This document shows positions 24,270 to 38,731 of a stretch of 64,000 nucleotides of DNA, piece after piece. Numbering within the stretch: the stretch's first letter is position 1; each line of letters starts with the position of its first letter. Origin of the DNA: Streptomyces sp. ATexAB-D23. Its GTDB lineage: Bacteria > Actinomycetota > Actinomycetes > Streptomycetales > Streptomycetaceae. Below the pieces are notes generated by a model. It worked only from the letters and a program-made list of their open reading frames with translations, was not told the DNA's origin and made no database searches. The DNA is taken from positions 252,441 to 316,440 of the forward strand of contig NZ_KB892001.1 in the NCBI RefSeq assembly GCF_000373645.1. The letters run 5' to 3'. The position numbers and the translations under genes were made by a program.

Positions 24270-24900
24270 GTCGCCGCTGTTCGCCCCGCGGCAGCCGGGG
24301 CCGGAGAGCCGGCCCGAGGAGAAGCTCCAGCCCTGGCAGCTGGACCGCACCAGGGCCCCGATCGCCACCAAGATCGTGGTCGCGGGCGGCTTCGGCGTCG
24401 GCAAGACCACCTTCGTGACCTCGGTCTCGGAGATCACCCCGCTCCAGACCGAGGCGATGATGACCCGGGCCAGCGAGGGCACCGACGACCTCGACGCCAC
24501 GCCCGACAAGACCACGACGACCGTCGCCATGGACTTCGGCCGGCTCACGCTGGACGACGACCTCGTGCTGTACGTCTTCGGCACCCCGGGCCAGCAGCGC
24601 TTCTGGTTCATGTGGGACGACCTGGTGCGCGGCGCGATCGGCGCGGTCGTCATGGCCGACACCCGGCGGCTCGCCGACTGCTTCCCCGCCCTCGACTACT
24701 TCGAGAGCTGCGGACTCCCGTACATCGTGGCCGTCAACCACTTCGAGGGCACGCCTGGGTTCGAGGCGGAGGACGTCCGGGAGGCCCTGACCGTCCCCGC
24801 GCACGTCCCCGTGGTGATCATGGACGCGCGCAGCAGGATCACCGTCGTCGAGTCGCTGCTGGCCCTGGTCGGCCACGCACTCGACGCCAGCCCCGGGTAG
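24250..24900 (+). CDS. cvnD: Small GTPase CvnD
   Basis: 216 residues from an ATG inside the end of cvnC. Ras/Arf-like G domain: P-loop GGFGVGKTTFV (about 41), switch II FGTPGQQRFWFMW with the Gln-Gln pair seen in this family, and VAVNHFEG in the NKxD position. It is the switch protein of the conservon, regulated by CvnA and CvnB. The monooxygenase gene follows after 28 bp, so it probably belongs to the same transcript. Confidence 0.95.
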   Translation: MDSVVSESPLFAPRQPGPESRPEEKLQPWQLDRTRAPIATKIVVAGGFGVGKTTFVTSVSEITPLQTEAMMTRASEGTDDLDATPDKTTTTVAMDFGRLTLDDDLVLYVFGTPGQQRFWFMWDDLVRGAIGAVVMADTRRLADCFPALDYFESCGLPYIVAVNHFEGTPGFEAEDVREALTVPAHVPVVIMDARSRITVVESLLALVGHALDASPG

Positions 24901-36024: not shown

Positions 36025-37269
36025 TCACCCCGCGACCGGCGGCAGAACACGCTCCACCGCCCCGGCCGCGCCCAGCAGCTCCGCGTCCCGGCCCCGGTCG
36101 GCCACCAGCTGGAGCCCGACCGGGCAGCCGTCCCCGGTGAACCCGGCGGGGACGCTCGCCGCCGGATGTCCGCTCAGGTTGAACGCCCAGGTCAGCGACG
36201 TGGAGTAGGTATCGCCCGGACCCTCGTGGCCGTGCGGGCGGTTCGGGGTGACGGGGGTCAGGAGCAGCGGGGTGCGGGCGAAGAAGGCGTCCAGCCGGCG
36301 GTCGTTCTCCCCGCGCAGCTCCGCCTCCGGCGGCGGCACGTCCCCGCCGCGTACCGCCTGCCAGGCCGCCGCCGGGTCCAGCAGCTCGCACCCGCCCCCG
36401 GTGAGCCGCACCACCCCGGCCGCCACCAGCCGCCGCACCGCGCCCCGCACCACGGCCGCCACCTCCGGGTCGGTCTCCGCGAACCCCAGGTCCGGGCTGT
36501 AGGCGGCGGACAGGGGCAGCACGGGGGCCACCGGCGCGTAGCCGTCCAGGACGTGGCGCAGATACGTCTGCGCACCGGCCGCCGATGCCGCCAGCACCCC
36601 GGCCGACGCGAGCCCCGACCGGTCCGGCGAGGGCAGCAGCCCGTTCGTCGTCTTCAGCCCGAACACCCCGCACCAGGCGGCCGGGATGCGCACCGACCCC
36701 GCCCCGTCGCTGCCGGTCGCCAGCGGGACCAGGCCCGCCGCGACCGCCACCGCCGAGCCGGCCGACGAACCGCCCGGGGTCCGGTCCGGCCGCCACGGGT
36801 TGACGGTGCGCCCGTGCGCGCCGAGCCCCCAGGTCTGCCAGTGAGTCCCCGGGCCGGGCACGGAGGCCGAGCCGACCGGGACGCCACCGGCCGCGATCAG
36901 CCGCCGGGCCGCGTACCCGCGGATACCGGCCGGGCCCTTCACCGCGAACGGGAGCCCGGCCAGGGGGAGGCGGGACGCGGCCGGGAGCCGGGCGAGCGCC
37001 TCCTCGGGCCTGTCGTCACATTCCCGTCTGCCGGCCGACGCCATGCACGCACTCTCGCCGCACCGGCCCCAGACCCAAGTACATCCAGTACGAGGGTCTG
37101 GGGCCGGCACGCCGAGAGCACGCACCTGACGCCGGCCGGCCCGCCCTCCGGGCGAACGACGGGAATGTGACGACAGGCCCTCGGGCCAGACGTCGAGGAA
37201 CGCGCACAGCCGCGGGTCCTCGCGCCCGATCGCGGCCAGCGCCCCGCGCACGTCCCAGGATTCCGTCAC
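36025..37269 (-). CDS. Amidase-signature enzyme with a 59-residue in-frame insertion
   Basis: 414 residues. The Ser-cisSer-Lys triad of the amidase signature family is present: Lys111 ([10 protein letters not shown]), Ser168 (PGGSSAGSA) and nucleophile Ser192 ([11 protein letters not shown]). Amidase-signature enzymes hydrolyse amides. Substrate unknown. At about 355 residues without the insert it is slightly short for the family. Residues 31-89 do not belong. They are the translation of a MITE-like hairpin element plus its target duplication (177 bp, 59 codons), which splits an original DVWPEEALAR. No stop or frameshift results. The insert lies in the N-terminal helical cap, before Lys111, so activity might survive, but folding could be affected. 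Confidence 0.85.
37008..37178. mobile_element. MITE-like hairpin element inserted in the amidase gene
   Basis: 171 bp bounded by perfect 21-bp terminal inverted repeats (37008-37028 and 37158-37178). CCTCGG is present on both sides (37002-37007 and 37179-37184), consistent with a 6-bp target duplication. Because the ends are palindromic, 4-bp or 2-bp duplications are also possible. The whole element is a near-continuous imperfect hairpin with an inner 14-bp perfect stem (37063-37076 / 37094-37107) around a 17-base loop that itself contains GTAC...GTAC. It encodes no transposase. I recall very similar intergenic elements in other Streptomyces genomes. Confidence 0.88.
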
Positions 37270-37273
37270 CGGC

Positions 37274-38731
37274 TCAGTCTTCCAGGGCCGCTTCCATCAC
37301 GGCCCGCGCGATCGGCGCCGCGCTGCCGCCGCCGCTGATGTCGGCCCGGTCGGCCTCGGCGTCCTCGACGACCACGGCGACCGCCACCGCCGGGCGGGCC
37401 GCGCCGTCGGCCTGCGCCCAGGAGATGAACCAGGCGTACGGCAGGTCCGAGTTGTCCACGCCGTGCTGGGCGGTGCCGGTCTTGCCGCCGACCGTCGCCC
37501 CGTCGATCGCCGCGTTCGTGCCCGTACCGTCCTCCACCACGTCGACCATCATCTGCCGCAGCCGCATCGCCGTCGTCGGTTCCATCGCCCGGTGGTAGGT
37601 GCGCGGACCGGTCGTCCGCACCGTCGCGCCGCTGTGCTTGGTCGTCCGCTCCACCAGGTGCGGGTACATCAGCTCCCCGCCGTTGGCGACGGCCGCCGCC
37701 ACCATCGCCATCTGGAGCGGGGTCGCCGTGGTGTCGAACTGCCCGATCGAGGACTGCGCCAGCTGGTCGTCGCTCATCTTGCGGTCGAAGTTGCTCTTCG
37801 CCACCCCCGACGGGATCTTCAGGTCCGTGTCGTTGAAGCCGAACCGGCCGGCCGCCGCCACCATCCCGTCGAGCCCGACCTCCACCCCCAGATGCGCCAT
37901 CACGGTGTTGCACGAGACCCGGATCGCGTCCGCCAGCGACGCCTTGGCGCAGCCGCGCGACTCGTTGGGCAGGACGGTGGAGGTGCCCGGCAGCACATAG
38001 GGCGACGGGGTGTCGGTCGCCGCGTCCGGATCGGTGACGACCTCCGCGTCCAGGGCCGCGGCCGCTGTCACGATCTTGAACGTGGAGCCGGGCGGATAGG
38101 TCTGCCGGATCGCCCGGTTGAGCATGGGCCGGCTGTCCGCCGCGTTCAGCTCCCGCCAGGCTTCGGTGACCGACGAGCCGGTGCCGGACAGCCGCCCGGG
38201 GTCGTACGACGGGGTCGAGACCAGCGCGAGGACGCGGCCCGTCGACGGCTCGATGGCCGCGACCGCGCCCCGCCGGTTGCCGAGCCCCCGGTAGGCGGCC
38301 CGCTGCATCGCGTCCTTGACGGTGGTGACGACGTCACCGCCCGGCTGCCGGTCCCGGGTGACCTCGTTCCACAGGGGGAGTGGGGCGAGCAGCGGGTCCG
38401 TGCCGGAGAGGACCGCGTCCTCGGCGTTCTCGATGAGCGTGGTGCCGTACGTCTGCGAGGCGTATCCGGTCACCGGGGCGTACAGCGGGCCGTAGCGGTA
38501 GGTCCGCTCGTGGGCGAGCTGCTCGCCGGTGTCCTTCGAGCCGGTGACGGGCCGGCCGTCGACCAGGATGTTCCCGCGCGGCTGGTCGTAACGGGCGATG
38601 GTGTTACGGCGGTTGGCGGGGTTGTCGTCCAGCTCGTCGGCCTCGAAGACCTGGACGCGGGCGGCGTTCACCAGCAGCGCGACGAGCAGCAGCAGGCAGA
38701 ACGCGGCGGCGTGCCGGATGTGGCGGATCAC
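37274..38731 (-). CDS. pbpA: Penicillin-binding protein 2 (class B transpeptidase)
   Basis: 485 residues from a GTG overlapping the upstream FtsW-like stop (GTGA). One N-terminal membrane helix (about 8-24), a dimerisation/pedestal domain, and the transpeptidase domain with Ser216-x-x-Lys219 (PPGSTFK), SCN at 273-275 and KTG at 417-419. It cross-links peptidoglycan outside the membrane with its partner glycosyltransferase, the SEDS protein encoded immediately upstream. The short form (under 500 residues) is typical of actinobacterial PbpA. It ends 4 bp before the amidase start. Confidence 0.95.

Follow-up and report, generated by a model that had tools for sequence, protein, structure and literature searches.

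In-frame insertion of a MITE-like hairpin element in an amidase gene of Streptomyces sp. ATexAB-D23, and related elements in Streptomyces genomes

Results

A MITE-like hairpin element of 175 bp (37006-37180) has been identified inside an amidase gene (minus strand, 36025-37269) of Streptomyces sp. ATexAB-D23. All positions refer to the window, that is, the whole stretch of 64,000 nucleotides analyzed here. With a probability of about three in four, we consider it a non-autonomous MITE of the IS5 type, which would have been mobilized in trans and inserted in frame, the insertion being recent and tolerated. Related elements are found at many other loci of Streptomyces genomes, and the evidence from the amidase gene itself is presented below together with that from the family.

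The Amidase Gene

The gene starts with GTG at 37269, encodes 414 aa and matches the Pfam Amidase profile (E 8.7e-46). As had been claimed in the preliminary description of this locus, its minus-strand frame is open throughout despite the insert, with a single, terminal stop. Residues K111, S168, and S192 (numbering of the window protein), which we take to be the catalytic Lys-Ser-Ser of the amidase signature family, are invariant in 37 aligned sequences, and both the Pfam match and these conserved residues place the protein among the amidase signature enzymes. The insert is located past a short conserved N-terminal part and before the catalytic Lys. The coding segment ahead of it (minus strand, 37185-37269; 28 codons and one base) has the natural sequence up to DVWPE, while the remainder of the gene past it (minus strand, 36025-37001) contains all three residues. 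A penicillin-binding protein gene lies upstream (minus strand, 37274-38731); the amidase start is 4 nt past its stop, and this spacing suggests coupled translation.

Lineage-specific substitutions in the amidase (18 synonymous and 8 non-synonymous) are inside the range of six relatives. Judging by this comparison, the gene shows neither a mark of decay nor an excess of amino-acid changes in its own lineage. In the AlphaFold2 model of the 414-aa protein (37 sequences; mean pLDDT 74), residues 32-92 are below 50 and most of the rest is confident, with further short weak stretches at 141-144, 211-215, and 348-354; the 59-residue insert is predicted to be disordered. The best Foldseek matches of the model are amidases.

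The linker hosting the insert varies naturally in length; of the 80 orthologues, 4 have it extended by 28-42 residues. We considered these four cases as possible old MITEs and rejected this, as the corresponding 150-nt stretches fold only to -72 to -91 kcal/mol; the comparison with -167 kcal/mol for the 183-nt window element is only indicative, the lengths being unequal.

The Hairpin Element

The element is bounded by perfect 23-bp terminal inverted repeats, the left one, GGGCCTGTCGTCACATTCCCGTC, at 37006-37028 (plus strand) and the right one at 37158-37180 (minus strand). It had been described previously as a hairpin of 171 bp with 21-bp repeats; the hairpin stands, and the sizes are corrected here, the earlier boundaries (37008-37178) starting 2 bp further in. 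Similarly, the flanking duplication, given before as CCTCGG, is real, but the direct repeat is 9 bp long, CCTCGGGCC, with the left copy at 37002-37010 and the right copy at 37179-37187. It reaches this length because the site and the element ends share letters. The actual target duplication lies somewhere inside it, the likeliest candidate being CTCG, given the CTAG/TA flanks of the family. Wherever the boundary is drawn, the element plus duplication has a period of 177 bp, that is, 59 codons, in agreement with the initial calculation.

Positions 37036-37134 (minus strand) constitute a hairpin core common to elements with other terminal repeats, and a side hairpin, GCCCGGAGGGC on the minus strand, bulges from the right arm at 37141-37155. 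RNA folding of the element yields z = -15 for both strands, with none of 200 shuffles being as stable. Through the element, the amidase sense strand folds to -167 kcal/mol with a stem of approximately 75 pairs, which begins about 90 nt after the start codon; in the core, the minus strand, corresponding to the sense of the amidase mRNA, is the stable, G-U-paired one. No terminator-like site was found in the region 36900-37400, and the element had no match in phage records. An Rfam search of six loci at the gathering threshold produced no match to the element, the single match being a cobalamin riboswitch beside one copy.

A Probably Recent Insertion

The insert segment, residues 31-89, is absent in all 80 named Streptomyces orthologues spanning the site (the best 80 of 445 relatives), as well as in all 14 best-match orthologues of an earlier set. 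This is the outcome by which the preliminary description proposed to confirm the insertion, and the contrary case named there, orthologues having the 59 residues with no DNA hairpin, was not encountered (0 of 80 carry the segment). Moreover, an exact empty site is seen in Streptomyces sp. AC1-42W: across the 36 bases compared, its uninterrupted gene is identical to the window flanks once these are joined. In translation, the junction reads DVWPE followed directly by EALAR, and the earlier statement that this is the natural sequence holds. The window element thus combines the features of a MITE: it is short and non-coding, has perfect terminal inverted repeats and a target-site duplication, its site is empty in relatives, and multiple copies are present in the genome. 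The earlier suggestion of a MITE-like, non-coding element inserted in frame is supported by all of these.

Elsewhere in the genome, the copy most similar to the window element (L002) has 4 differences in 175 bases. Two of these differences form one compensated base pair, one breaks a terminal-repeat pair in L002, and one is in the side hairpin. Since a near-identical copy exists and the insert is found in none of the orthologues inspected, the insertion is probably recent.

Of 74 full-size elements, 43 have a length, duplication included, that is a multiple of 3 bp. Stops are absent from 263 of the 432 frames provided by 72 elements, at six frames each; hence, an in-frame, open insertion is not improbable. 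When the bases of the window element are shuffled, a given frame stays open in 41% of 5000 trials. We estimate that an insertion in a coding region is in frame and open by chance in about one case in three (~0.35), and the openness of the window frame, taken alone, is unremarkable. If the insertion is very young, the open frame and the normal substitution pattern say nothing on function.

The Family in Streptomyces Genomes

In the genome of the strain itself, at least 59 BLAST matches to the element are observed (40 of 148 candidates scored; pieces and both strands of one copy are counted), one of them a full copy with 97% identity. Thirty of the 36 repeat-bounded elements detected there were retained, the other six being discarded as chance pairs; two of those retained (L012 and L014) have other ends and an unverified core. 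Sixty-six other loci were scanned for ends: one had no arms and six fell below the arm threshold, which left 59 (L131 was left out), and removal of L159, L185, and L189 yielded 56. The resulting 86 elements (30 + 56) are related by descent, so that counts over them are not independent. Strand analyses were done with 72 elements of at least 140 bp, excluding those at L012 and L014.

The BLAST search of other genomes, also proposed in the preliminary description, finds matches to the element in 30 of the 61 genomes examined, counting that of the strain itself; in two of them, which do not belong to the genus, the matches are close to the threshold. The covariance model of the core (R1) has matches in 15 of 246 genomes of the class; these are 14 of 22 listed genomes of the genus plus one from outside it, again near the threshold. 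Per relative genome, at most 13 BLAST candidates and at most 16 candidates of the covariance-model scan were scored, and the copy numbers are therefore lower bounds. One genome (G017, approximately 1140 contigs) has family copies at contig ends, with many short contigs, and some of its elements are cut by contig ends; this suggests many near-identical copies there.

The elements are 52-212 bp long and are bounded by GGGCCTGTC-type repeats. The core hairpin is also present inside elements with other ends, of the types GTGCCG..GCAGGC, GGGCCCTTCTGATGG, and GGGGGTGTTTCG. Automatic grouping of 72 elements by their ends produced 12 clusters, several singletons resulting from uncertain boundaries and the largest cluster lumping several types. 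Tiny elements of 52-62 bp are found at L012 (716-777), L074 (1501-1562), L105 (1471-1522), and L111 (1471-1522). They have no core, consist of nearly just two terminal repeats, and might be deletion derivatives or a core-less form. At L134, a different small hairpin with GGGCGCGTTTCGAAAG ends, situated just before 1501, adjoins a GGGCCTGTC end, CTAG being common to both, and neighboring hairpins are also present in L003 and L014. One copy (L133; G142:C1, ~6275071) flanks a cobalamin riboswitch aptamer (Rfam RF00174, 1410-1516) on its 3' side.

Landing Sites and Stop Codons

TA flanks are observed on both sides of 34 elements out of 86, on one side of 31, and on neither side of 21; the choice of boundaries included a bonus for TA flanks, and this favors both these counts and stops at the exact boundary. 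The window copy, having the target CTCG in sense codons, is an exception to the CTAG of the family. According to the codon-usage model, 64 element ends have a gene reading towards the element, and in 35 of them, from 30 of the 86 elements, a stop codon is placed exactly at the boundary, compared to 0-2 for each of six other offsets tested. These stops are predominantly TAG (31 cases; 3 are TAA and 1 is TGA), with TA contributed by the flank and G by the element. In annotated plasmid records, genes for WrbA, EboA, and one hypothetical protein end at the edges of copies. CTAG is rare in high-GC coding DNA. A stop codon is a harmless place for a CTAG target, and selection on the survivors is enough to explain the pattern.

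We considered a terminator or 3'-UTR role on the basis of orientation and rejected it. Of 44 gene ends, 20 have the stable strand in the sense and 24 in the antisense orientation, but 22 of these ends belong to elements with genes reading in from both sides and mostly cancel by construction. The single ends, 9 sense and 13 antisense, show no clear bias and point to no role for host genes that would depend on orientation.

Strand Asymmetry of the Core

As RNA, one strand, the same in all 72 elements, forms the more stable fold, with a mean gap of 36 kcal/mol. A symmetric pairing score gives 725 G-T and 70 C-A oppositions for the stable strand. In the column count, which took 52 elements with 75-79 pair columns, G-T is a minority pair in 44 of 75 columns, compared with 15 for C-A, and at least two Watson-Crick types are seen in 63. 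The alignment of 28 cores (A2; reduced from 43 by removal of near-duplicates) has 97.9% of cells pairing, 17 of 39 pairs changing on both sides, a covariation score reached by none of 500 shuffles, and three tandem U-G/G-U motifs kept in 26-28 of the 28 cores, all these counts being inflated by shared descent.

That the two arms are complementary would be expected of any palindrome; the one-strand G-U preference would not. Its simplest reading would be selection on the RNA or on one DNA strand. As there is no clear orientation bias towards genes ending at the elements, host transcripts do not explain the asymmetry. We tentatively suggest, as a reading that may well prove wrong, that the conserved core, maintained through strong covariation of base pairs and three tandem G-U motifs confined to one strand, could be a structured RNA or single-strand DNA module. 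Re-equipped with varied ends, it would be moved by different IS5-type transposases, frequently landing in stop codons (mostly TAG) and occasionally in proteins in frame, among them the TrpE that is the sole strong match of its genome.

Other Copies Inside Genes

Four further copies appear to be in frame, with frames open through the element according to the codon-model analysis (L102, L150, L179, and L167). One of them, from the same genome as the window (L102; G000:C13:249987-250190), has 204 bp, or 68 codons, and is inserted in a phosphotransferase-family kinase before the HGD motif; the insert is absent in eight orthologues (L321-L328). The gene carrying L150 in G009 has no Pfam match and probably encodes an acetyltransferase. 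The third (L179 in G032) is in a gene for a fumarylacetoacetate-hydrolase-family enzyme, where PDB 6v77 aligns in two blocks, one on either side of the insert. The fourth (L167/L315; G002:C223, ~24550-24740), a copy of 190 bp, or 192 bp with the duplication, which adds 64 residues, is in frame inside trpE, the neighbors of which, recognized from translation, are presumably hisF and trpC. This insert falls between aligned blocks of PDB 7bvd, and the frame is open to the natural end. The protein with the insert is the sole strong TrpE match of its genome, the next match being only 36% identical, and from this it may be functional.

Clear frameshifting insertions, as seen by codon-usage analysis, are two (L142 and L183). 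In a plasmid of Streptomyces sp. SAT1 (L317, 1118-1928), a copy resides in a DUF6309 gene whose annotation consists of two overlapping pieces, and this, too, may be a frameshifting insertion. We looked for enrichment of in-frame insertions and did not retain it, as five of them (the window copy, L102, L150, L167, and L179) against two frameshifts and the DUF6309 case are not significant at a chance of ~0.35; the calls for L150, L142, and L183 are those of the codon-usage analysis. The stable strand coincides with the sense of the gene in the window amidase and with the antisense in the other four in-frame copies.

Candidate Transposase Partners

Insertion sequences encoding DUF4096 transposases, which we take to be of the IS5 type, are candidate partners of the elements. 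Among 32 DUF4096 loci inspected, one insertion sequence (L219) has ends that agree with those of one MITE class in 19 of 20 bases; for two more (L206 and L225), the agreement is 18. Members of the IS5 family have a YTAR-type target and a 4-bp duplication. Several DUF4096 insertion sequences of Streptomyces share CTAG/TTAG-like flanks with the elements, which, in contrast, do not themselves encode a transposase.

No GGGCCTGTC-type terminal pair was found at the DUF4096 (three matches) and DDE_Tnp_1 (five matches) loci of the own genome. A search for the exact ends in 150 genus genomes produced matches in eight, own included. The matches in the remaining seven genomes comprise seven loci. With up to 6 mismatches allowed, none of these has a second end at an IS-like distance within ~3 kb; four have one within 170 bp, and three lack one. 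Hence, neither these own-genome loci nor the exact-end search in 150 genomes yielded an autonomous insertion sequence with the exact ends of the window copy.

Discussion

Our preferred scenario is that a MITE of the CTAG/TA-targeting family, moved in trans by a transposase recognizing its terminal repeats, whose family we infer to be IS5, entered the amidase gene at codons 29-31, using CTCG as an atypical target. The gene would have stayed open because the element plus duplication comprises 177 bp and one frame is stop-free. The 414-aa protein would then be made with a floppy surface loop of 59 residues, probably at a reduced level, because the mRNA carries a hairpin of ~75 bp near its 5' end. 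No new function of the inserted segment is indicated.

The hairpin might have a stronger effect, namely silencing or strongly reducing the amidase, with the RNA duplex cut by RNase III or blocking ribosomes, and with the frame still open only because the event is recent. The strength of the fold in the sense strand and the closeness of the stem to the start codon agree with this, as does the young appearance of the copy, and cutting of the pnp mRNA by RNase III is described for S. coelicolor (PMC4681348). Moreover, only in the window copy is the stabler hairpin strand in the mRNA, the other four in-frame copies having the weaker one there, and translation through the window copy may be the hardest of the five. 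Still, a terminator-like site is lacking in the region searched, the substitutions in the lineage resemble those of intact relatives, and the sole strong TrpE match of G002 has a similar insert, albeit one whose weaker strand is in the mRNA; we regard silencing as rather unlikely. Another way around the hairpin would be translation restart inside or after the element, e.g., at the ATG of codon 76, which is preceded by GGCGAGAG, producing an amidase without its first ~75 residues. The purine-rich stretch upstream of this ATG on the minus strand and the start of the catalytic core past the insert fit such a restart, which we nevertheless consider improbable, as the N-terminal part ahead of the insert is conserved in orthologues and modeled with mostly good confidence, and the distance of the start from the stop of the penicillin-binding protein gene suggests coupling.

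The preliminary description went further than the preferred scenario of a tolerated insertion, calling the element domesticated and exonised. Retention of the 59-residue segment for protein function would be in line with the open frame of a gene that is not decayed, but it is very improbable: none of the orthologues inspected has the segment, a DNA copy with just four differences exists elsewhere in the genome, and chance alone gives an open in-frame insertion in about one case of three. For the same reasons we do not adopt the term domesticated, and an insert that is predicted to be disordered (pLDDT below 50) and is kept by no orthologue inspected is not an established exonised product. Finally, long palindromes are a known source of assembly artifacts, and a hairpin chimera could in principle mimic an insertion; the probability of this is negligible, related elements with TA/CTAG flanks being present at many loci of many independent assemblies, including complete plasmid records.

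Palindromic elements of Rickettsia (RPEs), reportedly introduced by Ogata et al. in 2000, resemble the window copy in being palindromes in frame in protein genes, and here, too, the relatives of the gene are without it (80 of 80); the likeness is drawn from published descriptions of RPEs. The Streptomyces elements differ in the host phylum, in having clear terminal repeats, target duplications, and links to DUF4096 (IS5-type) transposases, and in that more copies in our sample are at gene ends than in frame inside genes. REP elements are short GTAG-headed palindromes associated with the RAYT transposase; the Streptomyces elements are likewise short palindromic repeats, but longer ones, with terminal inverted repeats and a target duplication. 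According to the RPE literature (PMC2229807, PMC10969869), RPEs have 105-146 bp and are found in frame in protein genes, and for one such fusion, in guanylate kinase, both translation and activity were demonstrated. In-frame palindromes being well known there, and four other apparent in-frame insertions of the same family being present in our sample, the window insertion is not the rare case in a bacterial protein that it was initially thought to be. Enterobacterial RU/ERIC and Coxiella QMITE elements are MITE-sized hairpins as well, described (PMC2229807, PMC5896051) as intergenic or at gene ends, with occasional in-frame fusions. Unlike them, the Streptomyces core hairpin recurs with different terminal repeats and has strand-specific G-U pairs. 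Among the titles listed in a search of open-licence literature, there was no report of in-frame palindromes or of such a MITE family for Streptomyces or actinobacteria, and the main text of a 2024 MITE review mentions neither "Streptomyces" nor "Actino."

In-frame palindromic inserts have been discussed above all for Rickettsia, an intracellular parasite, and are seen here in the large genomes of free-living Streptomyces. What makes the observation valuable is the family behind it, which repeatedly supplies Streptomyces genes with in-frame inserts and combines a conserved one-strand hairpin with ends that change. By landing at stop codons, it shows how a mobile hairpin can avoid damage. Its core, with G-U pairs on one strand and exchangeable ends, prompts the question of which role the hairpin plays in single-stranded form. 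As the sole apparent TrpE of one genome bears an insert, it is directly testable whether a working enzyme can carry a mobile insert of 55-68 residues.
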